Assembly (NCBI GenBank): GCA_002256345.1
Contig: NKIY01000014.1
Span: forward strand, 1 to 64,000
Direction of reading: 5' to 3'
Source: Bradyrhizobiaceae bacterium PARB1
Lineage (GTDB): Bacteria > Pseudomonadota > Alphaproteobacteria > Rhizobiales > Xanthobacteraceae
Length of the DNA stretch: 64,000 nucleotides
Notes under the pieces: generated by a model
What the model saw: only the letters and a program-made list of their open reading frames with translations
What the model was told of the DNA's origin: nothing
The model's database searches: none
Position numbers and translations under genes: made by a program
Shown: positions 1,595 to 19,603 of the stretch, piece after piece
Layout of the letters: every line of letters starts with the position of its first letter
Position numbering within the stretch: position 1 is the first letter of the stretch

Positions 1595-1858
1595 GATCCT
1601 ACCTCCGTTGGAGGCCGCGCCTGTCGCGGCCCGTGTCACGGCGGTCCGCTGCGAAGGCCTGCGGGGCCGCGCATCCGGTGGCGCTGGTGATCGGCGTGAC
1701 GACAGAGACGCCGGACCGGAACGCCAGTGGAGGACGGCAAAGCCGTTGCGCTGTCGCGCGGGCTGGAGCATCGACCGAAGGCCGGAACGGGCCGCGACGG
1801 GCGCTCCAGCCCGATTCATTTCTCTTGGCTCGTTTACGCCGTCGCGCCGTGCGACAGG

Positions 1859-1885: not shown

Positions 1886-1935
1886 GGCATCGGATTGTGG
1901 AAGAGGAGGGCGGGGCCGAAGCCCCGCCGGCGGCG

Positions 1936-2523
1936 TCACGTGAATGCCGCCATCTGAACCTCGGCCGCCTTGCGGCTAATGGTCTCGCCAGCATGTTCGA
2001 TCAGTCGTTCGAAGGGCTTCCAGCTCTCGCCGACGACGTGCTCGTAGGCGGCGACGGCGCCTTCGGCCGCCATGCGCAGCGCGTGAGCCTGAACGCCGAC
2101 CTCGGCAGCGAATTCGCGTTTGCGCTGCGCGGCGCTGTCGAAGCCGACGGGACCGTCGAGATCTTCGTCGCGGCGGTCATTGGAGAGTTTAGCAGTTGCG
2201 TCTCGCGCTTCGGTAACGGCGCGGGAGTAGAACTGGCCAGCGCCGTGGGCCGATCCGACATAGGAGCCGACGATGCGCTGTAGATGGATTTGCATTGCGC
2301 GCTCACTCAAGCCCTCCTTCAGGGCGTCGGCGGTTTCGACGATGAGCCGCTCGTGAAGGTCGCGGATGCCGTCGCTGTCGAGTGTGGCGAGGCCGAAGCT
2401 TTCGGAGATGCGATTGGCCTGTGCGGCATCGGGGCAGGCCAGTCGAACCATTTCAAGTGAAGTACCGCGACGAAGCGGAACGACAGTTGCCGATGAGCGA
2501 GGAGAGCGGGCGGTCTTTGCCAT
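1936..2523 (-). CDS. Conserved-type hypothetical protein of the mobile-element backbone
   Basis: Predicted 195 residues, Ala/Glu-rich and largely helical, with no transmembrane segment or signal peptide. The N-terminus is basic (MAKTARSPRSSATVVPLRRG), followed by acidic/Ala-rich helices. I do not recognise a domain. It stands alone between a terminator (1859-1885) and a long upstream leader (2524-3044) that carries a large inverted repeat. Stop and start are clean, and codon use looks like that of its neighbours. A DNA-associated or structural plasmid function is only a guess from context. Confidence 0.7.
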   Translation of the reverse strand: MAKTARSPRSSATVVPLRRGTSLEMVRLACPDAAQANRISESFGLATLDSDGIRDLHERLIVETADALKEGLSERAMQIHLQRIVGSYVGSAHGAGQFYSRAVTEARDATAKLSNDRRDEDLDGPVGFDSAAQRKREFAAEVGVQAHALRMAAEGAVAAYEHVVGESWKPFERLIEHAGETISRKAAEVQMAAFT

Positions 2524-3044
2524 GATAGGATCCTTTTTCGTTTTCGCCGAGGCAAGCCGTCGGCCCGTGCCGGCGCCCCCTCGGGTGCGGTCGCCAAGAA
2601 CCGGCGCAAGCGGAGCGCTTCAAGGGGCATTGACCGCGAAATCGAGCATGGGCGGGTTGCGGACAAGCGGGGCCGAAGGCCCTGCGCGTGACGCGGCCTG
2701 GCCATGACGAGAGGGCGGGCGATGATCGCTCGCGACTTGCCCTTGAAGCGATCCGTCGACGGTTCAGACCGCAGCAAACCCGAGGAGGCCCGGTACGGGA
2801 GACATCCAGCGCAACGAAAAGGGAAACGGCTTCCATCAAAGGCCGCCGCGATGCCATTGCCTATCATCGCATTGTCCGACCGCCGACGTGGCGTCGCGTG
2901 AGGCGCTGACGTCAGTCCCGCTGTCACCAGGCGTATCGATGGCAGCGTGACGGTCGCGCGATGACAGCGATCGACGCTGGCCACGTGGGTCAAACGACAC
3001 CGCATGCAACCCTCGCAGGCGAGTGATGGCGATGCGGACTGGCA
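2524..3044. other. 520-base leader region without a gene
   Basis: No coding frame here looks like a protein on either strand. The stretch contains the inverted repeat 2616-2626/2740-2750, one of four related copies, and presumably the promoter of the 195-residue gene. Confidence 0.5.
2616..2750. repeat. Inverted repeat, copy D of the CAAGGG/CCCTTG family
   Basis: Arms CGCTTCAAGGG (2616-2626) and CCCTTGAAGCG (2740-2750) are perfectly complementary over 11 bases, 113 bases apart. It lies 93 bases upstream of the start at 2523. Related copies are at 14543, 15142 and 16249, in the same relation to a start codon. Confidence 0.6.
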
Positions 3045-3401
3045 TCAAGGTCCCGTGTCGAAGTCTCCCGAGATGCCGCGCCGGCCAACCTTGATCCCAA
3101 GCCGCTGGCGGAGCGTTGCGGCTGCACTCTCCTGCCGCGTGATCTTGCGGATCAGCGCGTCGATCTCGGAGCGCCGCGCCAGCGTCAGAACCGTCATTGC
3201 CTCACGAAACATGCATTCGTCGACGCGAGTCCATGTCGATGTACCGCGAACCGTGTGGCGGCGCCTGGTGCGAGAGGTGATCGTTATGCGCTCGGCGCGA
3301 GCCGAGATCTGCCGTTCGATGAGCGCAAGGTTCCGGCACGTCTCGCGAAGTGCATTCTCCATGCGCGCGAGCAAGGCCGGGTGTTGGGGCATGGACGGCA
3401 T
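3045..3401 (-). CDS. Hypothetical protein, 118 residues, translationally coupled
   Basis: The start overlaps the stop of the preceding 49-residue gene (TGATG), and GGGGAGG stands just upstream, which fixes the start. The protein is basic and helical: a coiled segment of about 30 residues (ENALRETCRNLALIERQIS) leads into an Arg-rich stretch and a C-terminal helix (RRSEIDALIRKITRQESA). No known domain recognised. It is the last gene of an operon of five tightly spaced frames (5085 to 3045). Confidence 0.65.
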   Translation of the reverse strand: MPSMPQHPALLARMENALRETCRNLALIERQISARAERITITSRTRRRHTVRGTSTWTRVDECMFREAMTVLTLARRSEIDALIRKITRQESAAATLRQRLGIKVGRRGISGDFDTGP

Positions 3402-3550
3402 CAGAACATCCTCCCCGGCCAGAGAGGAAATGCGCTGTCGTCGGGTGCATCGTCGTCGGTGAGGATGCCGTGCAGGGCATCGGCGATCTCCGCATTGGGA
3501 CAGTCGTCCGCCTCCACGAGAAAATGAAAGGCCATGAGATAGGTCTTCAT
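3401..3550 (-). CDS. Small acidic hypothetical protein, 49 residues
   Basis: Begins MKTYLMAFHFLVEADD and ends in an acidic tail with Trp/Pro/Gly (PLWPGRMF). GGAGG lies at 14-10 bases before the ATG and AGGAG nearer. It overlaps the 118-residue gene downstream by one base, and its ATG overlaps the stop of the frameshifted gene upstream (ATGA). These two couplings argue that this short frame is real. Function unknown. Confidence 0.6.
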   Translation of the reverse strand: MKTYLMAFHFLVEADDCPNAEIADALHGILTDDDAPDDSAFPLWPGRMF

Positions 3551-3748
3551 GGCCGCTTCTCCTTTCCTCCAGAGAGGACGAGACCCGGTTGGGGTGCGTG
3601 GATGGACAGCAGCACGGCGTGCTTCCACGCTTCGCCCGCTGAAATGCCGGCGCAGACGCGGGTGCCAGCCGACGAGGATTGGCGCAGCGCCATCCTCGTC
3701 GGCTGCCGCACGCCATCCGAACGCTTTGGCGATGAGGTGCCACGGCAT
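3547..3748 (-). pseudogene. Small operon gene broken by a one-base frameshift
   Basis: The frame beginning MPWHLIAKAFGW at 3748 sits five bases after the DUF7007 gene and reads well for about 30 residues, then turns into Arg-rich nonsense. A second frame reads RVCAGISAGEAWKHAVLLS and ends in a TGA that forms a perfect ATGA overlap with the next gene at 3550. Joining both gives a sensible protein of about 66 residues. The total of 202 bases is one more than a multiple of three, so a single base was gained near 3655. It could be mutation, sequencing error or recoding. Confidence 0.55.
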
Positions 3749-3751
3749 GGG

Positions 3752-4624
3752 TCACCTCCAGCCGACGAAGCCCGACGGACCGTCGTAGAGACGGTGCCGG
3801 GCTTCATCGATCACGAAGCCGAAGCGGCCAATGCGATACTCGTCGGACGCTACGAGGTAGCGGCGTTGCTCGGCCGCACGGCGGTCGCCGCCGAGGCTCG
3901 CGACGCACTCCGTCATACCCGGATGCTGATTCGACCGGAGCGCCGAAATCACGATCCAATCGGAGGCATGTTCTTGTTCGAAGCGGCGCCGGTCCTTCTC
4001 GTGAGACTCGCCAGGTTGAAGCGTGCGGCCGTGAATGGCCTCCCATGTGTCCGGATACCAATCGCGGATCGTGTTGTCGGCCAAGCAGCGTTCGTAGTCG
4101 GTGAACAGCTCGGGGAAAGCTTGCGCCACGGCCGCCCAGGCACAGTCTTCCTCGTACCAGCCGCCGCGGACGCAAAGATTACGGTGGACCTTTGTGTTGT
4201 GTGCGGCATCGAGATGGAAGCCGCCATGGCTGGCCGTCGAATGACAGCCGACGCCATCGGCGTAGACGGTGGTCTGTTGCGATGGTCCCCACGGGGTGGA
4301 AGCCCGCGTAAAGACCTCGCGCCGGGTGAGCGCGGCACGCTGGCGCTGATGCTCGGCGTTTTCGTGAACGCGGACGCGGAAGGCGGCGATATCCGCGACC
4401 TCGCCGCTGTGGCCGTAGAAATCGGACCGCTTCCATTCTTCCATCGGGTCACGCAGCCGCCAGGCTGACGCGACAAAGAAGCTTCCGTTGGCGCCAGGAA
4501 CCATGGCGAAGGCAGTGTCGCCAACCTTTGCGACGAGCAGACCTCCATGAGTTTCGGCAAAGCAAACCCCCGGCGTGGAGGGGGTTTGACCGTCCAGGCG
4601 GTCGGAGGTGTGCGCGGTGGTCAT
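3752..4624 (-). CDS. DUF7007-type protein, 290 residues
   Basis: A soluble protein with no signal peptide, Trp/His/Asp-rich in the C-terminal half (VRGGWYEEDCAWAAVAQAFP, DWYPDTWEAIHG). It resembles the DUF7007 proteins of alphaproteobacterial conjugative plasmids; the family's function is not known to me. The ATG at 4624 has GGGAGG upstream and overlaps the stop of the 154-residue gene (ATGA), so the start is well fixed. The coupling places it in the 5085-3045 operon. Expression along with the maintenance genes is likely. Confidence 0.7.
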   Translation of the reverse strand: MTTAHTSDRLDGQTPSTPGVCFAETHGGLLVAKVGDTAFAMVPGANGSFFVASAWRLRDPMEEWKRSDFYGHSGEVADIAAFRVRVHENAEHQRQRAALTRREVFTRASTPWGPSQQTTVYADGVGCHSTASHGGFHLDAAHNTKVHRNLCVRGGWYEEDCAWAAVAQAFPELFTDYERCLADNTIRDWYPDTWEAIHGRTLQPGESHEKDRRRFEQEHASDWIVISALRSNQHPGMTECVASLGGDRRAAEQRRYLVASDEYRIGRFGFVIDEARHRLYDGPSGFVGWR

Positions 4625-5085
4625 GCCGCCCTCCCTTCCGCGACGACGGCGACCGGCTCGTTTGCCGTCACTTCGTCGAGTGTCGCACTGGGATAACCGT
4701 GCGATGCGAGCCATGCTTCGCCGGCGTTTCTATCCTGAGCGAGATGAACGAGTTCGCCCTGGCGATCGAGAACGCGTACCGAACCCGGTTTCGGCTGTTC
4801 GACCACGGCGAAGGTCAGGGTAGAGTCGACCGAAAAGGTCTTGAAGATCCTGAGTACAATGACACCGGAGCTGCCGAAGTCGCCCTGGTGCAGGGTGATG
4901 GTCTCAGGTGTCGTGTGGTTGCCGTGGGTGTGGGCTGCCGTCTTGCGGACGAGCCGGCCGTTATTGTTGCTGTTCTCCCAGGCGACGAGCTTCTTGCGAA
5001 ACCGTTCGGGCGGCCGCGACGTGCCATCCGAATAGCGAATGAGGGAGCCGAGGGGCGCGAGATCGTAGATGCGTTGAGCAGACAT
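4621..5085 (-). CDS. Hypothetical protein, 154 residues, first gene of its operon
   Basis: Starts MSAQRIYDLAPLGSLIRYSDGT behind AGGAGG (spacing 6). It is predicted as a small mixed alpha/beta protein without membrane segments. The middle holds TTPETITLHQGDFGSSGVIV and the C-terminal part resembles a short domain around SVRVLDRQGELVHLAQDRN. No known function recognised. It follows a strong terminator hairpin (5118-5146), so it probably has its own promoter or depends on read-through, and it opens a run of coupled genes down to 3045. Confidence 0.65.
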   Translation of the reverse strand: MSAQRIYDLAPLGSLIRYSDGTSRPPERFRKKLVAWENSNNNGRLVRKTAAHTHGNHTTPETITLHQGDFGSSGVIVLRIFKTFSVDSTLTFAVVEQPKPGSVRVLDRQGELVHLAQDRNAGEAWLASHGYPSATLDEVTANEPVAVVAEGRAA

Positions 5086-5117
5086 GATGTCCTCCTGTGA
5101 TGAGCGTGAAAACAGAA

Positions 5118-5146
5118 CCGCCGCCGGACAGATCGGCCGGCGGCGG
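5118..5146 (-). terminator. Intrinsic terminator after the ParB-like gene
   Basis: Perfect 10-base arms CCGCCGCCGG (5118-5127) and CCGGCGGCGG (5137-5146) enclose a 9-base loop. On the minus strand the hairpin is followed by TTCTGTTTTC. It lies 30 bases past the stop at 5177. Confidence 0.75.
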
Positions 5147-5176
5147 AAATCGTTCGGAAGGTGAGACGAGGTGCGG

Positions 5177-6853
5177 CTATTCGGCCGCGACGGCATAGGC
5201 GCCGGCGGGCTCGTCGATTTCGTCCCCGGCATCGCCGTCATCGAAATCGCCGGATGCCTGGTCCGGAGTTTCGAGTTCATCCTCGTCGGCCGAGGCGTGG
5301 CGCTCGGCCCAGGCGGTGATCGCGTCCGCCGCCGGGGCAAACAGCGCGGCGGGAGGCACGAAGCGACCCTCCGCGAAGTGCTTGACGAGCGCGGCACGGG
5401 TCTCCTTCACGCGGGGGCGCGGTAGCACCGACGTGCCCTCGCAGGTCGCTTCGAGCGCTATGCGGGAGAGGCAGGACAGGAAATCTTCCGTGCCCATGTT
5501 GGGCAGGAAGTTATCCGCGCCGATTGCGTCGCCGGCGATGCGCGCAACCACGCCGCTATCCGAACGGTTCTCGCGACAGGACAGTACGTCGACCAGCACG
5601 CCTCGCGCCGCCTGCTGCAAGGCCTCGCGATCGAATGCGAGTTTGCCGTCGTCGCCGAGCAGGCGTGCCGCATGGATAGCGGGCTTCGCGTAACCATCGG
5701 CGTGCCCGGAGGCGATGCTGACGTTCTGGCCGGCAAAGGCCAGCACGAGCAGGGCGAGCAGCGTATCGTCCTCGATGGGCGCGCGCACGAGCGCCTCATG
5801 CAAGGCATCGGTGCGAATGTCGCCGATCATTTCATGACCCTTGCGGGTCACGTCCGGCCGCGGCTTTGCGACCACCACGGCGGCATCGTCGTCGCCAGCG
5901 GAAGAACCCTTCGTCTTCTTTTCCGGTTTCGGCATCCGGTAGGCAACGGTCTGCACCGTGCCGCTGCGATCGAGATACATCCCGGTGCAGTCCGACTTGC
6001 CGGGCTTGCCATAAACGCGCTCGGCCTTAGCCGGCAGCTTCGGCTGCCCCCAGTCGTTGACCTCGACGATCGCGCCGCGCTTGGGCAGATGGTTCGCCAT
6101 CCACTCGTGCTGCGCGCCAAGGAAGGCGTCCACATCCGTGGTATAGCGGCTGTCTTCGTCGGCCGGGGCGAACAGGTCCTCCTGCCAGACGAGACCGTAG
6201 GCCTTGGCGAGATCGTCGTCGAAGCTGGCGTCGCGCGCGTACATGCGCGACCTGGTGAGAGCGCGCGCGACCTCGCCCCAGGAGACGGTCGGCTGTCCCT
6301 TCTTCGGCTTGTGCTTCTTCCAGACCTCGGCCTGCTCCTCGTCGCCGGCGGCTGCGATGACGCGAAGCTGCTGTTCGCTCGGCATGTCGCCGCGCGTCAT
6401 CTGGTCGAGCATCGCCGGCAGGACGTTGGCCAGCAACCGCAGCTTGCGGACCTGGCGCACGGACTGCGCGAGCGCGATGGCAATCGATTCCTCGGTCCAA
6501 CCGAGCGCGACGAGACGCTCGATCGAGCGCCAGAGATCGACCGGGTTCATGGCCTCGCGCGCGACATTCTCGACGACAGCGCGCAACGCATCCTTGTCCT
6601 CTTCGGGATCGGCCACCAGCACGTCAATCTCGGCGAGCTCGGCCGCGACCGCCTGCGTGACGCGGCGATGGCCGTACTGGATGGTATAGCCATTGCCGCC
6701 ATCCTGCTGCGGCGAAATGATCGGCGGCTGCACGATGCCGACCGCCTTGATGGTGGCGAGCAGCAGGGCGTCGGCCTGCGGCGTCGCAGGAGTCCGGCGC
6801 ATCGGGTCCGGATTGGGTTTCAGCGCGCGCGGATCGATGGTGATCAGTTTCAT
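5177..6853 (-). CDS. ParB/RepB-type partition-like protein
   Basis: Predicted 558 residues. The N-terminus (about 1-95) is a ParB/sulfiredoxin-type domain with GHRR at residues 61-64, the family's usual G-E-R-R box with His for Glu. A helix-turn-helix region follows (about 110-165, containing WTEESIAIALAQSVRQVRKL). The long C-terminal part is alpha-helical with an acidic tail (DEDELETPDQASGDFDDGD). ParB proteins bind centromere-like sites in a CTP-dependent way. No parA lies nearby, so an orphan regulatory or nuclease-like role is equally possible. GGAGA stands upstream of the ATG, and it is transcribed divergently from the toxin-antitoxin pair at 7184. Confidence 0.8.
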   Translation of the reverse strand: MKLITIDPRALKPNPDPMRRTPATPQADALLLATIKAVGIVQPPIISPQQDGGNGYTIQYGHRRVTQAVAAELAEIDVLVADPEEDKDALRAVVENVAREAMNPVDLWRSIERLVALGWTEESIAIALAQSVRQVRKLRLLANVLPAMLDQMTRGDMPSEQQLRVIAAAGDEEQAEVWKKHKPKKGQPTVSWGEVARALTRSRMYARDASFDDDLAKAYGLVWQEDLFAPADEDSRYTTDVDAFLGAQHEWMANHLPKRGAIVEVNDWGQPKLPAKAERVYGKPGKSDCTGMYLDRSGTVQTVAYRMPKPEKKTKGSSAGDDDAAVVVAKPRPDVTRKGHEMIGDIRTDALHEALVRAPIEDDTLLALLVLAFAGQNVSIASGHADGYAKPAIHAARLLGDDGKLAFDREALQQAARGVLVDVLSCRENRSDSGVVARIAGDAIGADNFLPNMGTEDFLSCLSRIALEATCEGTSVLPRPRVKETRAALVKHFAEGRFVPPAALFAPAADAITAWAERHASADEDELETPDQASGDFDDGDAGDEIDEPAGAYAVAAE

Positions 6854-7183
6854 GGGGATTCTCCATTGTTGGGTTGCGGGCGCCGCTCAGGCCACCCTTC
6901 ATCGTCTTCTTTCCGAAGACCCCATCCGCCGCGCGGAGCGGGCGGGACGGCGCAACTGCCGGCGAGCATCCCTGCCCGGCAGGCGGGAGCGGGGCGCACA
7001 GCGCCTTGCGAGCGCGCCGTGGCCGGGATGGCGAGGCGGTCGGTTGAGGTTCAGCGACGCCGAACCGTCCGCTCTGCGAGGAGGGTTTTCTCCCTCCTTG
7101 TCCCTCTTTATGTCCCTTGAATGCCACCCAGATAGACGCTATATTGCGTCATAATCTGAGGTTAAAGCCGAAAGAAGATCGAC
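6854..7183. promoter_or_regulatory. Divergent promoter region with a dyad before the Xre/RES pair
   Basis: This 330-base gap separates the ParB-like gene (minus) from the antitoxin gene (plus). A short dyad, GACGC (7135-7139), six AT bases, GCGTC (7146-7150), lies about 34 bases before the antitoxin start. Its spacer TATATT could be a -10 element. Autoregulation of the pair from this dyad is inference. Nothing else is recognised. Confidence 0.4.
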
Positions 7184-7534
7184 ATGGGCCTGACCCAATA
7201 TGCCGTCAACGGCTTCTTCGCCCCGCGCAAGATCGCCGAGGCTCTGCGCACGACGAGCGAGGAGGTGGCCCGTACCGCCGGGCTCGGCCGCGACGCCGTT
7301 CAGCGCAAGGACCGGGTGCAGTCTGACAGGACCCAGCGTCGGCTGCGCGAGATGGTTGAGGTGATCAACAAGGTCGAGCCGCGCTTTGGTTCGAGCTTGA
7401 TGGCCTATGCCTGGTATCGATCGGAACCGCTGCCGGGCTTTTCCGGCCAGACGGCGATGCAGCTCGTGCGCAACGGCCGCGCCGACGATGTGCTCGACTA
7501 CGTCGATGCGGTCGACGCCGGCGTTCACGCTTGA
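7184..7534 (+). CDS. Xre/MbcA/ParS-type antitoxin
   Basis: Predicted 116 residues. The N-terminal half holds a helix-turn-helix-like segment (APRKIAEALRTTSEEVARTA). The C-terminal half is the ParS/MbcA toxin-binding domain, seen from SSLMAYAWYRSEPLPGFSG and from MQLVRNGRADDVLDYVDAV at the end. In known Xre-RES pairs the antitoxin blocks the toxin's active site and represses the operon. The RES gene begins inside its last codons, an overlap typical of such pairs. A weak ribosome site (AAAGAAGA) precedes the ATG. Confidence 0.85.
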   Translation: MGLTQYAVNGFFAPRKIAEALRTTSEEVARTAGLGRDAVQRKDRVQSDRTQRRLREMVEVINKVEPRFGSSLMAYAWYRSEPLPGFSGQTAMQLVRNGRADDVLDYVDAVDAGVHA

Positions 7535-8036
7535 CGACGTGCAATATCGGGGAAAGCTCTATCGCGCGCTGAATCCGGTCTACGCGCGCGAACCGCTATC
7601 GGGCCGTGGCGCCGAGCTTTATAGCGGGCGGTTCAATCCGAAGGGCCTGCCCGCGCTTTATGCATCGTTGTCGGTGATGACGGCGCTCCATGAAGCCCAT
7701 CAGGTCGGCAATCTTCAGCCGACGACGCTCGTCTCCTATGACGCGGAGATCGATAACGTCTTCGATTGCCGTGCGGATCGTGCGCTCACGGCGGAGGACA
7801 TGGACGCCGCGGCGCTCGCCGACGACACATGGCGCGACCAGATGAAGGCGAGCGGGGAAGCGCGAACGCAAGCCTTTGCTCGCCGGCTGTTCGCCGGCGG
7901 CTATCACGGCCTGCTGGTGAGGAGCTTCGCCCCGGGCGCGATCGCCGCTGACCTGAATCTAGTGCTCTGGAGGTGGGGCGACGCAGCGCCGGCCCGACTG
8001 ATCCTGATCGACGACGAGAATCGCCTGTCGCGATAG
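7506..8036 (+). CDS. RES-domain toxin
   Basis: Predicted 176 residues from the ATG at 7506 (MRSTPAFTLDDVQYRG); a GTG at 7539 is an alternative start. The RES fold is clear: YRGKLYRALNP, then YSGRFNPKG with the conserved Arg, and SLSVMTALHEAH with the conserved Glu. Characterised RES toxins degrade NAD+ and stop growth. It overlaps the antitoxin by 29 bases and ends 4 bases from the convergent stop of the methylase/helicase gene, leaving no room for a separate terminator. Together with 7184-7534 it should act as an addiction module. Confidence 0.85.
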   Translation: MRSTPAFTLDDVQYRGKLYRALNPVYAREPLSGRGAELYSGRFNPKGLPALYASLSVMTALHEAHQVGNLQPTTLVSYDAEIDNVFDCRADRALTAEDMDAAALADDTWRDQMKASGEARTQAFARRLFAGGYHGLLVRSFAPGAIAADLNLVLWRWGDAAPARLILIDDENRLSR

Positions 8037-8040
8037 CTGC

Positions 8041-11000
8041 CTATGCGGCTACGCGATCTGCCGGCTGCGCGTTGCCGTCGGCGGCGGCGTCCGTATCGCG
8101 GGCGAGATCGGCATCGATCTCCGCCAGTTGCTCGCGCTTCATCTTGAACTCGGCGGCGAAAGCGAACTCTTCGCCAATGCGGGACTGGTAGGAGGACAGG
8201 CGCTTGCGCGCCTCAGCGAGCCGGCGACGATAATTCTGCTGTTCGTCGTCAAAGCCCGCGAGAGCATGTTCGACGCGCGCGACGGCGCCGATCGGCGTGA
8301 CGGTCACGGGAAGGCCGATTTCATAGTCGGCGCCCGTTCGCATCAGCGTCGTGGTAAAGTGGAAGCCGTCCTTGCCGAAGCGCTCACCCGAAAACTCCAG
8401 GTCGAACCCGCCGATCGAGACGATGACGACCTCGCCCTCGTGCTGGAGCTGCACGAGCGTCAGAATCTCCTTCATCAGAGCGCGACCGGCGAGCTTGCGC
8501 TCGTCATGGGCCTTTCCCATCACCGTCATGGTAAAGGCGTCACCCGCCGTCGGAACCAGGCGCTCGATATCCTGACCGATCTCCCCGATACGGCGCGTCG
8601 ACAGCTCGATCTCGCGTTCGGCGTCGCGGATCTGCCGGCGAATGGCGTGCTGATCGTCGACATGGGCGGCGCGCAGGCGGTCGAGCCGCGCAATCTCGGC
8701 TTCCAGCCCTGCCTTCTGCATCAGACGCTGATCGCCGGACGCGATGGCCTTGGCCATGGCGAACTGGTTCGCCTGCCCCTCGCCCATGTCTTCCAACCGG
8801 CGAATGCTGGTATCTCCTGACAGCGCCGCGGCGATGAACCTCGCCTTGCGCTCGTTGTTCTGCCACATCGTGGCGTCGAGCGAGCCGAGCGTGGCATAGG
8901 CGAAGATGTCGACGACATCATGCTGGTTGCCCTGCCGAACGATCCGACCCTCGCGCTGTTCAATCTGCGAGGGCAGCCACGGCACATCGAGGTGGTGCAG
9001 GGCCTTGAGGCGAAGCTGTGCATTGACGCCGGTGCCCATCGTATCGGACGAGCCGATCAGCACGCGCACCTTGCCGGACCGGACATCGCTGAACAATCGC
9101 TGCTTCGCCTCGGACTTCTTATAGTCCTGCATGAAGGCGATCTCGGAGGCCGGCACGCCCATGCGGATCAGTTCCTCCCGAATCCAGCGATAGGCCGAGA
9201 AGCCTCGGCTCTTCTCGACGCTGATCGTGCCGAGATCGGAGAAGATCATCTGCGCGGCGCCGGTCAGCTCAAAGGGCTTTCCGTCGCTGCGAACATAGGC
9301 GTTCGCCGCCGTGTCCTGCCAGATGCGGAAGGTGTTTGCGACAAGGAGGTTGAGCTTGTTGTCCACCTCATTGTCATTGCCAGGATCGACAAGCCGCAGG
9401 TCGATTGCCGCGTGACGGCCATCGGTGATGACCGAAAGCAGGATGTCGTCGCCGGGCTGCGGTGGACCATCGCGTTGCTCGATCGCCGTAATGCGAGCGT
9501 CGAGCAGACGCTGATAGGCCTTGAACGCCGCGGTCGGCGGCGCGGCGACGATCTGGCGCTTGCCGCCTGAAATCTCCGGCACCTTCACATACTCGCGCAA
9601 GTACGCCGGCATCACCACGTCGGCGAAGGAGCGGAACATGGCGATCAGTTCCGGTACATTGACGAACTGCGCGAAGCGTGTGACCGGCTTGTATTTGCCG
9701 GAGGGCTGGAGTTCGAGTTCGGTCGAGGCGTCGCCGAAGGTCGAAGCCCAGGCGTCGAACTCGTGCAGGCCGCGCTCGCGCAACGCCGCATGGCCGAGCA
9801 GCCGCTGCACGGTGAACATCTCACCCAACGTATTGGTGATCGGAGTGCCCGAAGCGAGGATAAGCGCTCTCGCCGGATTTTTCGTTTCGATGAAGCGGGA
9901 TTTGACATAAAGGTCCCAGGCGCGCTGCGAGCCATTTGGATCGACACCCTTCAGCGTGCTCATGTTCGTCGCGAACGAGAGCTTCCGAAACTCCTGGGCC
10001 TCGTCGACGATGATCTGGTCGACGCCGATCTCGGACATGGTCAGCAAATCATCCTTGCGGGTCGACAGGGATTCCAGCCGCTCCTTCAATCCCTCCTTCA
10101 ATCGCTCGAGGCGCTTGCGCGAGACGCGGTCGTCGCTTTCGACCTTGGTCAGCAGTTCCTCGTAGAGTTCGAGTTCGTCCTGGATCATCTGCTGTTCGAA
10201 GGCGGATGGCACGGCGATGAAGCGGAACGCCGAATGCGTGATGATGATGGCGTCCCAGGTCGCCGTCGCCGCCCGCGACAGGAAGCGGTGCCGCTTGGCT
10301 AAAGTGAAGTTGGTCTCATCGGCGACGAGGATACGGGCGTTCGGATAGAGCGCCAGGAACTCGCGCGCGGCCTGCGCCAGGCAATGGCCGGGAACGACGA
10401 GCATGGCCTTGGCGATCAAGCCGAGCCGGCGCTGCTCCATGATGGCGGCGGCAAACGTCATCGTCTTGCCGGCGCCGACGGCGTGGGCGAGGTAGGTCGA
10501 GCCCGCCGTGATGATGCGCCAGATGCCGCGCTTCTGGTGCCCATAGAGAGAAAAGGCACCAGAGGCGCCGGGTAACTGGAGATGCGAGCCGTCGAAGGCG
10601 CGTGGCGCGATATTGTTGAAGCGATCGTTGTAGATCCGCGCCAGCCGGTCCGTGCGATCGGGATCGGACCAGATCCAGTTCTGAAACGCCGTCTTGATCT
10701 TTTGCAGCTTCTCCTTCGCGGCTTCCGTGTCGACGACGTTGAGCACTCGACGTTCGCTGTCGCCGTCCTTCACGATGTCGAAGATCTGCGGCACGGAAGA
10801 GTTCAGCGCGTCCGAAAGGAGCTGACCGGCATGACGCCGATCGGTGCCCCACTCGGAGGTGCCGGCGGCCAGGTATCCAAGTTGCCGCGCCTCGACGGTC
10901 CACGATGCCAATTCCGGCATATGATGGATTCTGATCTCCGCGCCCATCGTCTCGTTGACGAAGGTGACGATGTCGGCGGCCGGGATCCACGGCGCGCCGA

Positions 11001-13146
11001 GACGCGCGGTGATGTCGGAAGGACGAAGGTCGGCGGGTTGTACCGCCTGCAACGCGGTGACATTGCGCTGATAGGCCGGATCAAGCGCGGCCGCGGCTTG
11101 CGCCATGACGAGCTTCGAGCGAACAGCGCCCGAGAGATAGGCGTCGGACGTCTGCCAGGAGCCATCGCCGGGATCGCGAAAGATCGCGCTGCCGAGTTCG
11201 GCAATCACGTCTTCGACATCGCGGTGTAGCAACTCGGCGACGTGATCGGGATCGACATGGCCCCGTTCGTTGAGCACCACGGCGAGTGCATCGGCCGCTG
11301 ATGTGATGACCGGCGGCGCGGGCGGCGCAATCACCCGCTCGGTAAAGATCGGTCCTGGCGTTGCGGTATTCGACTCAAGATCGTAATCTTCGATGGAGGC
11401 CACCAGCCAGCAATCGGGATCGTCGAGGAAGGGCTGGATGTTCGGGCGACGGTGCGTTTCCCGCACCTCGCCGGTTTCCTCGTCCTCGATGGTCGAGACC
11501 GTGGTGAAATTGATCGGCCCGAACGCGCGCACAAAGTTCGACCAGACGATGCGCAGCTTCACCTGCGCCGGCTTCCACGGCCGGTCGCACTCCTGCGCCT
11601 TCAGGACCTCGCGAACCGCATCGCGGATCGGGATCAGCTTGCGGATGATACGGACATGCTTGTCCGGGATACCGTCAGCGCTGCGTCCCTTGCGCACATG
11701 GATCGCGACCGGCGCACCATCGACGAGCTGCATGAGGCCATGCCGGTTGCCGATGAAGTAGCTGCCCTCGCGGACCTGCCGGTCGTCCGGCCGTCGTTCG
11801 AGGTCGCTGGCGACATCGTTCTCAAGCTCGATCTCGATCGCGTTCGGTTCGCCGTCATAGATGGCTTCCGGAAGGAGGCGGACGGCGGTGGTCAGTGCCG
11901 CGTCGAGATTCTCGCCTTTACGTGGACTACACGTATAGGTCTCGCCGAATGGGCCGGAGGTCAGCGCATGCGTCCCCAACACCATGCCGGGATGCCGCGC
12001 GAACCAGCGATTGACGCGGAGGGCGCTGTCGTCGCCGGCCGCCGGCCGAACCTCGTCGAGGTCCAGCCAGGAGAGGTCGCCGTCCGATTCGCCGTCCTTG
12101 CGCTTGCGGAAGAACAGGATGTCGACGACGACGTCAGTGCCGGCGTCGGCCCGGAAGCTGCCCTCGGGAAGCCGGATGGCGCCGACGAGATCGGCCATGC
12201 CGGCGATATGCGCACGCGCGCCATGGTCCGCCTTGTCCATCGTGCCATGGCTGGTCACGAAGGCGGCAAGCCCACCGGGCTTCAGCAACCCAAGCGCCTT
12301 CACGATGAAATAGTCGTGCAGGCGCAGACCCATTGAGCGCAGCGCCCGGTCCGAGCGCACGGTGCGATCGGAGAAGGGCGGGTTGCCGATGGCGAGGTCG
12401 AAATGCGCCGGCAGCTCGGTGCGCGCGAAGTCGCCCGCGATGATCCGGGCGCGCGGCTGCAGAAGACGGACGATACGCGCGGTGACGGGATCGAGTTCGA
12501 TGCCGGTGACGTGGGAGGCAGTTCGAAGCTCCTCCGGTATCAGCGCCGGGAACAGCCCGGTCCCGATGCCGGGTTCGAGCACCCGGCCGCCGCGCCATCC
12601 CAGGCGTTGCAGCCCGGCCCAGATTGCGCGAACGATGAATTCCGGCGTGAAATGCGCGTACTGCGTACAGCGCGCGAGCGAAGCATACTCGCCTGTCGCA
12701 ACAGCATCCTCGAGGTCGGCGCCGATCTCTTCCCAGCCCTTGCGGAAATCTGTTTCCCCCGGACGGCGGAAAACGCCGTTGGCGAGGTCGGATGCGCCGA
12801 AGCCGATGAATTTGATCAGCGCGGCTTGTTCTTTTGTCGTGGCTGGCCGCTGTGCCTGTTCGATCTCGCTGGCCAGACAGATGGCAGCGAGGTTGTCGCG
12901 CGCCCGCTCGCGCCAGGACGTCGCAAGTCCGCGGTGATCGCCGAGGTAAAAGTTCTCGCCCTTGAGTGGGGCGGGGGAGCGCCCCGCTGCTGTGACGGCC
13001 CGTGCAGGCGCCGGCGATGACGGAGATGGGTCATCGTCGCCGCCGACCTCGAGGGAGGATGGAAAGGCGGTGATGCCGAGGCCGAGGCCGGATGAAAGCG
13101 CGGTGTTCCCAAAGAGGTCGAGGGTGAAGGGATCATCATTGGACAT
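8041..13146 (-). CDS. Giant DNA methylase/superfamily 2 helicase fusion, 1701 residues
   Basis: The N-terminal third holds an N6-adenine methyltransferase core: VLEPGIGTGLF near residue 188 (SAM motif I) and NPPF near 251 (motif IV). The rest is a helicase-like ATPase with AHAVGAGKT near 885, VDEAQEF near 1045, ILASGTPITNT, and a C-terminal helicase domain with QREGRIVRQG near 1395. A coiled-coil tail follows (about 1450-1600). Proteins of this build are common on large alphaproteobacterial plasmids and phages and are often listed as strawberry-notch-like or SNF2-like. Methylating the element's own DNA against restriction is a reasonable inference. AAGGAG precedes the ATG. It is the largest gene in the window. 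Confidence 0.85.
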   Translation of the reverse strand: MSNDDPFTLDLFGNTALSSGLGLGITAFPSSLEVGGDDDPSPSSPAPARAVTAAGRSPAPLKGENFYLGDHRGLATSWRERARDNLAAICLASEIEQAQRPATTKEQAALIKFIGFGASDLANGVFRRPGETDFRKGWEEIGADLEDAVATGEYASLARCTQYAHFTPEFIVRAIWAGLQRLGWRGGRVLEPGIGTGLFPALIPEELRTASHVTGIELDPVTARIVRLLQPRARIIAGDFARTELPAHFDLAIGNPPFSDRTVRSDRALRSMGLRLHDYFIVKALGLLKPGGLAAFVTSHGTMDKADHGARAHIAGMADLVGAIRLPEGSFRADAGTDVVVDILFFRKRKDGESDGDLSWLDLDEVRPAAGDDSALRVNRWFARHPGMVLGTHALTSGPFGETYTCSPRKGENLDAALTTAVRLLPEAIYDGEPNAIEIELENDVASDLERRPDDRQVREGSYFIGNRHGLMQLVDGAPVAIHVRKGRSADGIPDKHVRIIRKLIPIRDAVREVLKAQECDRPWKPAQVKLRIVWSNFVRAFGPINFTTVSTIEDEETGEVRETHRRPNIQPFLDDPDCWLVASIEDYDLESNTATPGPIFTERVIAPPAPPVITSAADALAVVLNERGHVDPDHVAELLHRDVEDVIAELGSAIFRDPGDGSWQTSDAYLSGAVRSKLVMAQAAAALDPAYQRNVTALQAVQPADLRPSDITARLGAPWIPAADIVTFVNETMGAEIRIHHMPELASWTVEARQLGYLAAGTSEWGTDRRHAGQLLSDALNSSVPQIFDIVKDGDSERRVLNVVDTEAAKEKLQKIKTAFQNWIWSDPDRTDRLARIYNDRFNNIAPRAFDGSHLQLPGASGAFSLYGHQKRGIWRIITAGSTYLAHAVGAGKTMTFAAAIMEQRRLGLIAKAMLVVPGHCLAQAAREFLALYPNARILVADETNFTLAKRHRFLSRAATATWDAIIITHSAFRFIAVPSAFEQQMIQDELELYEELLTKVESDDRVSRKRLERLKEGLKERLESLSTRKDDLLTMSEIGVDQIIVDEAQEFRKLSFATNMSTLKGVDPNGSQRAWDLYVKSRFIETKNPARALILASGTPITNTLGEMFTVQRLLGHAALRERGLHEFDAWASTFGDASTELELQPSGKYKPVTRFAQFVNVPELIAMFRSFADVVMPAYLREYVKVPEISGGKRQIVAAPPTAAFKAYQRLLDARITAIEQRDGPPQPGDDILLSVITDGRHAAIDLRLVDPGNDNEVDNKLNLLVANTFRIWQDTAANAYVRSDGKPFELTGAAQMIFSDLGTISVEKSRGFSAYRWIREELIRMGVPASEIAFMQDYKKSEAKQRLFSDVRSGKVRVLIGSSDTMGTGVNAQLRLKALHHLDVPWLPSQIEQREGRIVRQGNQHDVVDIFAYATLGSLDATMWQNNERKARFIAAALSGDTSIRRLEDMGEGQANQFAMAKAIASGDQRLMQKAGLEAEIARLDRLRAAHVDDQHAIRRQIRDAEREIELSTRRIGEIGQDIERLVPTAGDAFTMTVMGKAHDERKLAGRALMKEILTLVQLQHEGEVVIVSIGGFDLEFSGERFGKDGFHFTTTLMRTGADYEIGLPVTVTPIGAVARVEHALAGFDDEQQNYRRRLAEARKRLSSYQSRIGEEFAFAAEFKMKREQLAEIDADLARDTDAAADGNAQPADRVAA

Positions 13147-13252
13147 CGAAAATTCTCCTTGTGATAAAGGCGCGCGCCGTCGTCCCGCGGGAGGCAGGCG
13201 ATGGCGTTGGGCTGGTGGAGGGACCGGACGATCTACCGGCGCCGGAAATACG

Positions 13253-13275
13253 AAGCCCGGCGCTTGGCCGGGCTT
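13253..13275 (-). terminator. Terminator-like hairpin
   Basis: Perfect 9-base arms AAGCCCGGC (13253-13261) and GCCGGGCTT (13267-13275) with a 5-base loop lie 28 bases past the stop of the 177-residue gene. A short AT stretch follows on the minus strand (CGTATTTCC). It may limit read-through into the methylase/helicase gene. Confidence 0.6.
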
Positions 13276-13302
13276 GTCGCTGAGTTTCAGGGACGCAGGC
13301 GG

Positions 13303-13836
13303 CTATGCGTCTTCGCCAGACGCTTTTGCGGCCTCGTTCCAGAACTCCTCAAGCATGTCGGTCGTGGACCGGTAGCGGATGGCATCTTCCGTGATGAGCA
13401 TGACGCTGCCGCCGAAGCCGTCCGGCCGCATCTTCGTGCAGGTGAATGCTGTTGTGACCACGATCTCCTCGATCGTGGCCGAGCGGCGTACGATGTCCTG
13501 GAATATCCGGTCCCACCCGTTGTCGGAGCCCGTGAGGTCGACGTCGATGTCGTCCGGCGGATCGTCACCGGCATTCGCGTCGTATCGGGCGAGCAGCGCG
13601 GCGACGTGATTGCCGATGCTGCTTTCGCGCTGTTGGCGCGAGGCATCGCAAGCGATGCGCAGATCATCGATGGACAAAGTGACGATGTCGCTCGGCCCGC
13701 ACCATGAATGATAGTAGAGACCGCCTTCCTCATTCTCGGCGTCGAAGACGAGGCCGAGGATCAGGCGCTCCAGCGGGGTCATGTCCGCAGCAGGAATGTT
13801 CGGCTGGATGACGGTCGGTGAGTGATAATCCGCCAT
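13303..13836 (-). CDS. Hypothetical protein, 177 residues
   Basis: Acidic soluble protein beginning MADYHSPTVIQPNIPAADMT, with a helical N-terminal half (TPLERLILGLVFDAENEEGG) and an acidic C-terminus. No known domain recognised. GGGAGG lies upstream of the ATG, and the start is 12 bases after the stop of the DUF1419-type gene, so the two form an operon. Such acidic proteins near antirestriction genes may be DNA mimics, but nothing here shows that. Confidence 0.65.
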   Translation of the reverse strand: MADYHSPTVIQPNIPAADMTPLERLILGLVFDAENEEGGLYYHSWCGPSDIVTLSIDDLRIACDASRQQRESSIGNHVAALLARYDANAGDDPPDDIDVDLTGSDNGWDRIFQDIVRRSATIEEIVVTTAFTCTKMRPDGFGGSVMLITEDAIRYRSTTDMLEEFWNEAAKASGEDA

Positions 13837-13848
13837 GGCATCCTCCCC

Positions 13849-14436
13849 TCACGCCGCGATCGCGTCGGGCAGGTAGCGCAGATGCACCGGCAGCTTGGCG
13901 GAAATCTCGTCGTCGCTCAGAGCGTCGAGCGCCTTCTCGATTGTGCCGCTCGTCTCACCATAGACGAGTACCGTCCTCTTGCCGCCGACACCGGCATAGC
14001 CACGATAATCGTCATGCGTGCTCGACCAGATGTGCTCGAGCCGTTCTTCACGCGTCATGGCCCGAACCGGGCGCGATTCACGCTCGATGATCGAGACCTT
14101 CAGGCGTTCCGGCGAGCCAAGCTCGGAAAGATCGCAATAGCCGTGGAAAAAGCGCCGGCGGCCGTCGATCGACAACGCCAAGAAGACGCTGGTGATGCTG
14201 CCGGTGAGATATTCGCGCATCGCGAACATATCGCCGCGCATGAATAGCGGCGGCAGGATCTCAAACATGTAGTTGTGGTCGCGCTCGGCGATCTCGAACC
14301 ACTCGCCCGCGAACAGATGTCCGGCATCGCCCGCGGCCGTGGCTGGATCGCCGCGATGACGATTGAACATGCGGTACATGTCGTGGCGCGTCGCGACGCC
14401 TTCGAAGACCTTTCGGATTGGGAGTGAGGTGTGCAT
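13849..14436 (-). CDS. DUF1419-type protein, 195 residues
   Basis: Begins MHTSLPIRKVFEGVATRHDM and contains EWFEIAERDHNYMFEILPPL, which resembles the DUF1419 proteins found on rhizobial plasmids; their function is unknown to me. It is soluble, with no signal peptide. AAAGGAG precedes the ATG at 14436. It is the first gene of a two-gene operon with the 177-residue gene. Its leader contains repeat copy A (14543-14605), suggesting shared regulation with the genes at 15081, 16141 and 2523. Confidence 0.7.
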   Translation of the reverse strand: MHTSLPIRKVFEGVATRHDMYRMFNRHRGDPATAAGDAGHLFAGEWFEIAERDHNYMFEILPPLFMRGDMFAMREYLTGSITSVFLALSIDGRRRFFHGYCDLSELGSPERLKVSIIERESRPVRAMTREERLEHIWSSTHDDYRGYAGVGGKRTVLVYGETSGTIEKALDALSDDEISAKLPVHLRYLPDAIAA

Positions 14437-14542
14437 GGCGGCTCCTTTCAGCCTGGCCGGGCTGAAGCGCGAACGATCCACTTGATCACCTCATCACTTC
14501 AGTCCTTGATCACCTCCTCCGCGGCCGCATCGAAGGTCCGGC

Positions 14543-14605
14543 GGGTCAAGGGCCGCGGAACGCGGGCGAAGCTTCACCCTTGACGCGGCGGCCGGGCATG
14601 CGGCA
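14543..14605. repeat. Leader repeat, copy A (inverted arms GTCAAGGG/CCCTTGAC)
   Basis: A 63-base unit starting GGGTCAAGGGCCGCG and ending GGGCATGCGGCA. Its internal arms GTCAAGGG and CCCTTGAC can pair. The unit recurs at 15142-15202 with only a few changes. It lies about 107 bases upstream of the start at 14436. Confidence 0.7.
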
Positions 14606-14682
14606 GCAGGTTTCATATTCCTCCCTCTTTTCCCTCTCCCCATTCCCAGCGGCGATCGGCCCGATGGGGCGCGCGGACTTCT

Positions 14683-15081
14683 TCAATCAGGATCGGGTTC
14701 GCCGGCAAGAATCGCTTCCGCCCTGGCGATCGCCGGTTGCGCGCGCTTGAGCCAGAAGGCGCGATCAGGGCGCTCGGCCTCGCCTGCATTCGCAAGAAGC
14801 TTGACCAGGCCGAGCAGCACCTCGAAGTGCAACGCAATGCGCTGCATCGTCTCGACATGTCGAGAGGGGATAGGCTGCGCGGGTCCGCTACAGGCGGCGT
14901 CCTCGCCCGACCAGACGCCCGTCACATAGGTCTCGCCGGCGGACTCGTCGTCGCGCTTTTCATCGGACCAATCATCGTCTTCGATGGCGAGGCGACAAGC
15001 TTCGTCGATGGCAGCAGCGCCATAAGTACGATGGCGGTAGACCGGCAGGCGATAGGTTGTTTCGATGGTATAGAGCGGCAT
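14683..15081 (-). CDS. Hypothetical protein, 132 residues
   Basis: Begins MPLYTIETTYRLPVYRHRTY. The first half resembles a small beta-rich fold with an acidic centre (IEDDDWSDEKRDDESAGETY); the second half is helical (HVETMQRIALHFEVLLGLVK). No domain recognised. It is a stand-alone gene between repeat copies A and B. AGAAGG lies upstream of the ATG. Size and position fit the short backbone proteins of conjugative plasmids. Confidence 0.65.
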   Translation of the reverse strand: MPLYTIETTYRLPVYRHRTYGAAAIDEACRLAIEDDDWSDEKRDDESAGETYVTGVWSGEDAACSGPAQPIPSRHVETMQRIALHFEVLLGLVKLLANAGEAERPDRAFWLKRAQPAIARAEAILAGEPDPD

Positions 15082-15141
15082 GGCGTGGCCCTTCTGTTGG
15101 GTGTTGCAGACACCCTCGGGCAGCCGCGTCACCGATCCGCT

Positions 15142-15202
15142 GGGTCAAGGGCCGCGCAACGCGGGCGCAGCTTCCCTTGACGCGGTGGTCGGGCATGCGG
15201 CA
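15142..15202. repeat. Leader repeat, copy B
   Basis: A 61-base near-copy of 14543-14605: same GGGTCAAGGGCCGCG start and GGGCATGCGGCA end, three bases shorter in the middle. Arms GTCAAGGG/CCCTTGAC are kept. It lies about 60 bases upstream of the start at 15081. Confidence 0.7.
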
Positions 15203-15220
15203 TTGGCTTGCTTGCATGTG

Positions 15221-16141
15221 CTACGCGACAAGCTCGCTCTGCGGTCTCTTGACCAGCCCCATCAGATCTTCATTCCAGTCATCGGCGCGCGGTCGCGATC
15301 GCGCATACTGCGCGCGCGTCTCCGCGGCGATGGCGCGAATACGCTCGGCGTAAACCTCGCCTTGCCGATTGTTGTCGGTTGCCGCCACAAGCCGGACGTT
15401 GGCGCGTTGGGCCAACAGGCGGATGGCTTGATCGGTCGCAGCGGACCAGCCGCCGCCGGTGCTGACATAAAGAGTATCAGAACGCAGCACCTCGATCACG
15501 GCGAGGCTCATGGCGTCGATCGCCGCCTCGGTGATGCAGATCCGCTCTGCTGCGGCGCGGCCGAGGCGAAACAATTCCTTGGTTCCGTCGGTGGCGAAGC
15601 CGCGCCATTCTGGTCCGCGCTCCTCCCACCCTGTTAACGTTCCATTGGAATCGCGATGCGCCGCCCACATGCTGCCATAGGGACCCTCGCGTAGCTGGTT
15701 GCCGGCGACGGCCTGCACCACGATGTCGGCCGGCAGAGCGCGCGCGCCGGTGAGATATTCCCAGGCCGACGAGCCGGGGCGCAGTCTGAAGCGATGACCC
15801 CACCGGTCCGCGATGGAGGCGATCGTCTTCACCTTGGCGGGGCGTTGCCAGGCCGGCGCGTTCGGGATGAAACCAACGACGCTTGCGACGCGATCGCAGG
15901 CATCGACAAAGCCGCCGGCGCCGAGATGCTCGGCGAGTGAGAAGACGTCACCCTTCGCGGTCGACAGCGGATCGAACCAGCCACGGCCGTCGTGAATGAC
16001 GATGACGATCTCGCCCTCGCCGCGCCGATACTTGATCGCGCGGCGGGTGCTTTCCTTGATGTCGACTTTCCATCCTTCTGTTTCGAGCAGGGCGGCGCAG
16101 CCGACCTTTTCGCGCAGCTGCTCAATCTCTCTCTTGTCCAT
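15221..16141 (-). CDS. DUF3991/TOPRIM-domain protein
   Basis: Predicted 306 residues. The N-terminal part (about 1-100) resembles DUF3991, containing GRGWFDPLSTAKGDVFSLAE, as in plasmid primase-like proteins. The C-terminal part is a TOPRIM fold: ICITEAAIDAMSLAVIE supplies the catalytic Glu near residue 200, and AATDNNRQGE the metal-binding Asp. TOPRIM proteins of mobile elements act as primases, nucleases or topoisomerase-like enzymes. Priming the complementary strand after transfer is a reasonable inference. The start at 16141 is chosen from homology to the domain start; its ribosome site is poor. Repeat copy C lies upstream. Confidence 0.8.
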   Translation of the reverse strand: MDKREIEQLREKVGCAALLETEGWKVDIKESTRRAIKYRRGEGEIVIVIHDGRGWFDPLSTAKGDVFSLAEHLGAGGFVDACDRVASVVGFIPNAPAWQRPAKVKTIASIADRWGHRFRLRPGSSAWEYLTGARALPADIVVQAVAGNQLREGPYGSMWAAHRDSNGTLTGWEERGPEWRGFATDGTKELFRLGRAAAERICITEAAIDAMSLAVIEVLRSDTLYVSTGGGWSAATDQAIRLLAQRANVRLVAATDNNRQGEVYAERIRAIAAETRAQYARSRPRADDWNEDLMGLVKRPQSELVA

Positions 16142-16248
16142 TTCGCTGCACCAGGCGCGCCACAGGCGGCACCAGGCCCTTTCTTCAGTTGATCTTTCCC
16201 GTTCCGCACTTGGCGAAGCATCTCCGACCGGCCGCGAAGCCTGCCGGA

Positions 16249-16313
16249 TGCAAGGGCGCGCTGACAAGCCATCCAACGTATGGGATTGCGGGCGCGGCGA
16301 AGCTTCCCTTGCA
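16249..16313. repeat. Leader repeat, copy C with compensatory arm change
   Basis: Arms TGCAAGGG (16249-16256) and CCCTTGCA (16306-16313) pair perfectly. Compared with copies A/B, the outer pairs changed together while the core CAAGGG/CCCTTG and the GCGAAGCTT segment are kept. It lies 108 bases upstream of the start at 16141. Confidence 0.6.
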
Positions 16314-16348
16314 ACCGGCGCGGCGCCAGCGGCAGCCGGTCACCCGGC

Positions 16349-16525
16349 TCAATGAGCCGGATGCCACGGATCGTATTCATGCACGATGGCATCTTCCTCG
16401 CCGTCGTACTCGCTGGAAACCATGACGCCGAATTCGTCGTCGACCTGGAAGAGGACCACCGGGACCATCAGCGTGCGGGCGAGATCGAAGGCGTGATTCT
16501 GTGAGAGGGTGAGATTCTGCGACAT
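16349..16525 (-). CDS. Small acidic hypothetical protein, 58 residues
   Basis: Begins MSQNLTLSQNHAFDLARTL, continues with VVLFQVDDEFGVMVSSEYDG and ends HPAH. The sequence looks like a folded small protein rather than a random frame, with an acidic, hydrophobic-patterned C-terminal half. GGGAGC lies 6 bases before the ATG. No family recognised. It stands upstream of the TOPRIM gene on the same strand and may share its transcript. Confidence 0.6.
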   Translation of the reverse strand: MSQNLTLSQNHAFDLARTLMVPVVLFQVDDEFGVMVSSEYDGEEDAIVHEYDPWHPAH

Positions 16526-19594: not shown

Positions 19595-19603
19595 GAGTCT
19601 TCA

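Follow-up and report, generated by a model that had tools for sequence, protein, structure and literature searches.

Introduction

The activation of leading-region genes in fresh recipient cells has been worked out for few plasmids, F and ColIb-P9 among them. The Frpo/ssi elements of these two plasmids are described as hairpins of the transferred strand (T-strand) which lie in the leading region, upstream of establishment and anti-restriction genes that have the T-strand as their template (PMC11541004, PMC8708921). A second system, EGeRS1 of the pLS20 family, is described in PMC8708921 as a set of several inverted-repeat-rich leaders per plasmid, with ardC among the genes concerned and no constitutive promoter found. 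The present work deals with hairpins built on the core CAAGGG/CCCTTG which precede a module of minus-strand genes in a 64,000-nucleotide stretch of DNA from Bradyrhizobiaceae bacterium PARB1 (contig NKIY01000014.1, positions 1 to 64,000), referred to below in its entirety as the window.

The hairpins considered here are of two types, A and B. Like Frpo/ssi, they are imperfect hairpins which would form on the T-strand upstream of establishment genes, and they appear to lie in a leading region for which the T-strand is the template, as judged from nic-like sites, recognized by sequence similarity, in 7 related plasmids. Unlike Frpo/ssi, they lack -35/-10 hexamers, have another architecture and occur in Hyphomicrobiales hosts. 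They are set apart from Frpo by these described features and are not assigned to it, because the promoter hexamers are missing.

By analogy, the nearest multi-operon counterpart is EGeRS1, with which the window shares structured leaders (types A to E) in front of several establishment genes including ardC. EGeRS1 is one sequence family, however, whereas types A/B, C, D and E differ from one another, and the transferred strand of pLS20 is the non-template strand according to PMC8708921, whereas here it is probably the template. EGeRS1 spans 400-600 base pairs (bp), compared with about 75-145 bp for the A/B matches.

DNA mini-hairpins of the GCGAAGC type, with GNA triloops (N being any base), are stable and have roles in the promoters of phage N4 and in the origins of single-stranded DNA phages. 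The sequence GCGNAGC is found on the T-strand in 134 of 140 A/B copies, a likeness of structural motif rather than one of homology.

The reading developed below, to which we give an even chance of being correct, is that the hairpins are conserved leading-region elements of Hyphomicrobiales conjugative plasmids which fold on the transferred single-stranded DNA and there start RNA synthesis for the establishment genes.

Results

Core pairs and hairpin architecture

The original prediction described four related hairpins with this core, each placed upstream of a particular minus-strand start. All four core pairs are present (2621-2745, 14547-14582, 15146-15179 and 16251-16311), and the named start lies downstream of each, but only three of the pairs belong to types A and B; the fourth belongs elsewhere. 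With gaps of 5-40, 5-60 and 5-120 nucleotides (nt), the window holds 2, 3 and 4 pairs, compared with means of 0.10, 0.14 and 0.28 and maxima of 1, 2 and 4 in 200 first-order Markov sequences, and a second chance estimate for the short gap gave 0.10 expected against 2 observed. The question whether chance might supply as many such arms is thus answered differently for the two kinds of pair: the close-spaced pairs are above chance expectation within the window alone, but the wide pair 2621-2745 on its own shows no excess.

Two covariance models were built from homologues. Model R1 matches 14522-14606 and 15121-15203 (expectation value, E, about 5e-17) and model R2 matches 16215-16339. Each also recognizes the other type, more weakly, and neither gives a match at 2621-2745 in the window. 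The elements and the genes that they precede are as follows.

14522..14606, minus strand: type A hairpin leader of the DUF1419 gene, core 14547-14582 (R1, E 4.9e-17)
14613..14642, minus strand: purine-rich tract upstream of this type A hairpin, pyrimidine-rich on the T-strand (limits are an average over copies)
15121..15203, minus strand: type A hairpin leader of the 132-amino-acid gene, core 15146-15179 (R1, E 4.5e-17)
16215..16339, minus strand: type B hairpin leader of the DUF3991/toprim gene, core 16251-16311 (R2, E 1.8e-17; R1, E 7.6e-6)
13849..14436, minus strand: DUF1419 gene (Pfam)
14683..15081, minus strand: 132-amino-acid gene, p132 (no Pfam or NCBIfam family at E 0.001)
15221..16141, minus strand: DUF3991/toprim gene (Pfam)

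In both types the core stem CAAGGG/CCCTTG surrounds a mini-hairpin GCNNNGC on the 5' side and an inner hairpin, which is short in type A and longer in type B; the distance between the two 6-mers, start to start, is 19-31 in A and 51-75 in B. The outer arms pair. The claim that the flanking arms always do so holds for the bases adjoining the core, but mismatches occur further out in 15121-15203, and one C.C mismatch is nearly invariant in type A (89 of 92 copies). Rfam gave no match at the gathering score in the whole window, and in a scan of positions 1-20000 the hairpins had no match even with E allowed up to 5. Inspection spoke against a leader peptide encoded across the hairpin, because the loop lengths vary out of frame.

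In type A leaders the hairpin is preceded by a purine tract (about -65 to -31) and followed by sequence that stays conserved as far as about +60; further upstream there is little conservation. Among 97 distinct type A copies the purine fraction at -60 to -31 is 0.83-0.92.

Distribution and gene linkage

The module is conserved in Hyphomicrobiales plasmids, and further A/B copies, with paired changes, are found there at corresponding places. The regions examined included those of the Ti plasmid pTiKerr27 and of plasmids of Aminobacter, Rhizobium, Shinella, Afipia, Nitrobacter and Bradyrhizobium. Of 72,556 plasmid records, 648 match the 3-kilobase stretch 13840-16800 and 499 match DUF1419. For the detailed comparison, the best 80 of 286 genome-contig stretches encoding a DUF1419 relative were combined with loci L009, L010, L011 and L013 and the window to give 85 loci. 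In 84 of these, DUF1419 is preceded by a type A hairpin whose CAAGGG stands 142-182 nt ahead of the point where the protein match begins, a linkage which is partly due to selection, since the loci were chosen by the DUF1419 protein. The single exception, L052, failed the search pattern yet has a shorter-spaced copy.

Linkage was also evaluated over all A/B copies with exact core 6-mers, which number 202 (114 A and 88 B, not de-duplicated). By tblastn, every one lies upstream of a gene of the module: DUF1419 in 93 cases, toprim in 88, p132 in 20 and helicase in 1. Measured from CCCTTG, the first residue of DUF1419 is 108-122 nt away, that of toprim 72-113 nt, that of p132 6-69 nt (median 68) and that of the helicase 171 nt. 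The helicase case is that of a Shinella plasmid in which extra genes separate helicase from DUF1419 and the helicase has a type A hairpin of its own. For the mismatch and loop counts given in this work, an unrelated palindrome (L009_32087) was left out of type A, and nested A-in-B matches were left out of type B.

When nine whole plasmids were scanned, A/B matches at E 0.01 were confined to the module; the strong ones fall on the strand of the genes, and weak mirror matches coincide with them in position. In genome samples R1 was found in 4 of 297 genomes of the order and in 1 of 289 of the class (the window's own genome), counts which, with at most 15 candidates scored per genome, are no proof of absence when low.

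Covariation

The original prediction held that selection acts on a hairpin rather than on plain sequence, and covariation supports this. In both alignments, A3 (31 rows) and A4 (27 rows), none of 500 shuffles reaches the observed covariation score, the number of cells with two-sided change or the percentage paired, and every slid register scores below the true one. On a tree of DUF1419 with 85 tips, 25 two-sided changes between standard pairs were reconstructed in type A, and losses of pairing number 93; pairing is only loosely maintained at pairs -6 and -7. For this reconstruction identical protein-plus-leader rows were collapsed, and inner-stem counts were taken from perfect stems only. Covariation passes most of the controls.

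Identity of the transferred strand

The traC-traA intergenic regions of Aminobacter pAA03 and pTiKerr27 contain what we take to be a sequence like the nic site of RSF1010, on the strand that leads via traC, traD and traG into the module. The corresponding Ti-type pattern occurs in 5 of 9 plasmids, always between traC and traA, and the T-strand that it specifies is the template in 5 of 5. CP069301 has upstream of mobC a site which is presumably an IncP-like nic, and of 6 plasmids searched with this second pattern 2 have it without mismatch, in each case ahead of mobC and with the same polarity. A usable nic-like site is thus available in 7 of 15 plasmids, and all 7 would place the module in the leading region and make the T-strand its template. 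Because these 7 sites agree in polarity, the transferred strand is probably the template of the module genes, which by synteny would be the plus strand of the window. No nic sequence was found in passages of PMC5924552 and PMC7755788.

The type B arm GCGCCCTTGC (16251-16311 in the window; 5186-5208 in L095; 5868-5890 in L094) resembles the presumed Ti-type nic GCG/CCCTTGG, on the non-transferred strand. This likeness is also seen in MOBP plasmids and was treated as coincidence.

Strand-specific signals

The loop of the mini-hairpin is GNA on the T-strand in 87 of 92 type A and 47 of 48 type B copies, and is never GNA on the mRNA strand. The same asymmetry is seen when all perfect triloop hairpins with a stem of at least 4 are collected: GNA is on the T-strand in 107 (72 A, 10 B, 12 C and 13 D) and on the sense strand in 8 (3 A, 0 B, 2 C and 3 D), against 162 and 193, respectively, among 3715 triloop hairpins of coding background.

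Mismatch gains in A/B, counted by parsimony with the Shinella tip represented by its helicase copy, comprise 43 that are G.T on the T-strand and 11 that are G.T on the mRNA strand (two-sided p 1.4e-5). Mutation spectra measured from 30 four-fold columns and 76 spacer columns fail to explain this excess (one-sided p 2.7e-7 and 2.5e-11). A first, tree-free wobble count had been ambiguous (8 vs 22 in A; 69 vs 11 in B, towards the mRNA strand); several type B columns in it were not true pairs, and it was replaced, with its result already known, by the parsimony count and the pair percentages.

Consensus folding energy is lower on the T-strand than on the mRNA strand in type A (-27.0 vs -17.2), type B (-31.3 vs -21.4) and a larger B set (-26.4 vs -14.9); the measure assigns 4.5S RNA to its true strand (-39.2, complement -14.1). 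A second RNA considered as a control, ybhL (RF00520), was found in only 3 of 121 genomes. The GNA triloops and the wobble gains point to the T-strand as the folding strand.

Other structured leaders of the module

The module reads, in minus-strand order, toprim, p132, DUF1419, a 177-amino-acid gene, methylase/helicase, ParB-like, DUF7007, a 195-amino-acid gene and ardC. Its further leaders and genes are as follows.

2564..2799, minus strand: type C long-range stem leader of the 195-amino-acid gene, including the pair 2621-2745 (limits approximate)
1617..1804, minus strand: type D long-range stem leader of ardC (limits approximate)
6900..7085, minus strand: type E conserved structured leader of the ParB-like gene (limits approximate, set by eye)
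668..1594, minus strand: ardC-like gene, ArdcN + MPTase-PolyVal (Pfam)
1936..2523, minus strand: conserved gene of 195 amino acids, function unknown (without a Pfam or NCBIfam family at E 0.001)
5177..6853, minus strand: ParB-like gene (Pfam ParB_N)
8041..13146, minus strand: methylase/helicase gene, 1701 amino acids (Pfam N6_Mtase + Helicase_C above cut-off)

The wide pair 2621-2745 is a conserved stem inside the type C leader. In relatives an arm of the TTCAAG type is kept, its complement following at about 100-140 nt, and some show paired changes, as in L108, where CGCTTCAAGACC is matched with GGTCTTGAAGCG. The long-range stems of L004, L005 and L009 are perfect over 22-25 bp with arms about 200 nt apart; arm sequence varies by lineage with pairing kept, and other loci score lower. 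Relatives of the 195-amino-acid gene occur in 14 of 397 genomes, its own counted. Type D has long-range stems similar to those of type C and, in most of 14 loci, a mini-hairpin AACGGC-NNN-GCCGT with a variable loop. In the ardC leader (1595-1935, minus strand) this loop is often TNC on the mRNA strand, which is GNA on the T-strand; the window copy has TTT. Type E is a strongly conserved block of about 190 nt (6900-7085, minus strand) which follows a purine-rich tract and gives no match with R1 or R2.

Neighbouring genes

A LuxI-type autoinducer synthase (19604-20227, plus strand) adjoins the module. On this side of the module CP069301, a related plasmid, carries VirB-type transfer genes and an autoinducer-binding regulator, which suggests quorum-controlled transfer. 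Further off, an open reading frame at 58636-59832 (plus strand) has a first part resembling a VirB11-type ATPase (T2SSE) and then the sequence of a coupling protein (T4SS-DNA_transf), and looks like fused remnants of transfer genes. A C-terminal fragment of an RND efflux pump (ACR_tran, 41932-43062) lies near an integrase-core (transposase) reading frame, and a full-length RND pump is encoded at 53384-56623.

Discussion

Conservation, gene linkage, covariation and the loop and wobble signatures of the T-strand were computed directly. What they support best is an element that would act on the incoming strand as folded single-stranded DNA. A role in starting RNA, as promoter and/or primer, is proposed because of the position of the hairpins, their polarity and the analogy with Frpo. 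On this proposal, the incoming single-stranded T-strand would fold into hairpins just upstream of the establishment genes that it templates, and RNA synthesis (transcription and/or a primer) would start at the hairpin and continue through toprim, p132 and DUF1419; by analogy, the helicase, ParB, 195-amino-acid and ardC genes may be started in the same way. Synthesis of the complementary strand would end the process, the hairpin being lost in the duplex, so that expression would be early and transient. The action would resemble that of Frpo/ssi with another architecture, made up of the CAAGGG/CCCTTG core, mini-hairpins with GNA triloops and a T-strand pyrimidine tract, and containing no sigma-70 hexamers. 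The earlier suggestion that such sites serve as single-stranded promoters of establishment genes fits in leading-region position, template polarity and strand-specific signals, but the promoter hexamers were not found.

A number of results weigh against the proposal of a start site on the T-strand. With regard to polarity, the identity of the nic sites rests on sequence similarity, the window's own origin of transfer is not in view, and a reversed control pattern also gave one match; two matches with 3 mismatches were set aside, that in NC_007960 having the opposite polarity and lying inside an AAA-ATPase gene, and that in NZ_CP051294 being uninformative. The diverged DUF1419 loci L101 and L105 gave no hairpin match. 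Two of the covariation measures do less well against shuffles: the count of pairs that show two-sided change holds up in A3, whereas in A4 318 of 500 shuffles attain it, and the count of pair types fails in both alignments (attained by 295 of 500 shuffles in A3 and 427 of 500 in A4). Kinship among copies is handled by parsimony alone. The long stems of types C and D show no wobble bias (17 vs 22 and 4 vs 6). As for promoters, the best 12-base sigma-70 scores in the 97 type A leaders are no better than those of shuffles, no sigma-70 promoter was found in the window at 14400-16600, and inside the hairpin at most 3 of 6 bases match TATAAT in the 97 copies.

Two measures of strand asymmetry are also weakened by their controls. 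Single-sequence DNA folding is lower on the T-strand in 91 of 92 A, 32 of 48 B, 23 of 24 C, 10 of 14 D and 9 of 9 E copies, and 159 coding fragments show no clear difference between strands; this energy nevertheless carries little weight, because its 4.5S control fails, the true strand being lower in only 10 of 29 cases when folded as RNA and 6 of 29 as DNA. In the A/B pair cells, G-U amounts to 0-0.2% on the mRNA strand and G-T to about 1.5% on the T-strand. In 4.5S RNA of the same order (29 of 30 loci extracted), 130 G-U and 5 A-C were found among 869 cells on the RNA strand, or 15% G-U, but the complement, in its own predicted structure, has 13% G-T, so that the percentage separates RNA from the hairpins and does not separate strand from strand.

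The main rival, which we consider unlikely on balance, is that the hairpins are structured mRNA leaders (5' untranslated or intercistronic) that control read-through or translation, as EGeRS1 of pLS20 may do; PMC8708921 reports that EGeRS1-B, for which no constitutive promoter was found, blocks read-through in Bacillus. Some of the evidence against a T-strand start site tells at the same time for such leaders: conservation reaches about 60 nt downstream of the hairpin, between it and the gene, as an mRNA leader might show, and type B, when folded as RNA, has its lower energy on the sense strand in 32 of 48 copies. The regular spacing to the start codons is likewise what an mRNA leader would have. 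Against it stand the rarity of G-U (0-0.2% as compared with 15% in 4.5S RNA), the 43 to 11 preference of wobble gains for the opposite strand, on which the GNA triloops are also found, and the want of any Rfam family match.

The strand signals are shared by a second alternative, in which the hairpins are ssi sites that only prime the complementary strand, by a host or plasmid primase, with no role in transcription. The folding signals of the T-strand and its pyrimidine tract beside the hairpin suit this idea, as does the toprim protein of the module, which we presume might be primase-like. Priming alone would, however, need few sites and no gene linkage, whereas there is one element per gene or gene block at a regular distance from the start codon, even at the separated Shinella helicase, and we regard this alternative as improbable.

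Still less probable, and in our estimation very much so, is a double-stranded site, operator or cruciform, recognized by a regulator of the plasmid or by its ParB-like protein. The elements are palindromic and their core 6-mers invariant, an invariance due in part to the use of those 6-mers in collecting the copies. The flanking and inner arms change with pairing kept, the spacing of the 6-mers varies (19-31 in A, 51-75 in B), and asymmetric strand signals would not be expected of duplex binding; the plain operator or recombination site entertained in the original prediction is not favoured. That the paired changes merely reflect mutational correction at imperfect palindromes, with no structural selection, is scarcely credible, since, although standard-pair changes are mostly two-sided, as correction by template switching would make them, the conserved C.C mismatch, the GNA loops and the gene linkage require selection.

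Among the matches listed in a search of the open literature, no title or abstract opening describes these hairpins, which is no proof of novelty, and the term DUF1419 was found in no paper there. PMC12826799 treats DUF3085 and Frpo in plasmids of Enterobacterales and PLSDB; neither Agrobacterium nor Rhizobium was found in a search of the main text of that paper or of PMC11541004.

In a large group of plasmids, Ti and rhizobial ones among them, the hairpins supply a compact, strongly conserved candidate for leading-region activation. Their coordinates are exact, two covariance models describe them, and the prediction as to strand is open to direct testing. The combination of wobble direction, loop type and nic polarity also offers a way to tell single-stranded DNA elements from RNA leaders by sequence. 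Tentatively, and with more doubt than we attach to the start-site proposal for types A and B, it may be suggested that types A to E make up a new class of single-stranded DNA start sites, with GNA-triloop mini-hairpins in place of sigma-70 hexamers, in front of most leading-region genes of Ti-type and related plasmids. These plasmids would then carry a self-contained early programme on the T-strand, which host RNA polymerase, a primase or a protein of the plasmid might read in a manner different from that of Frpo.

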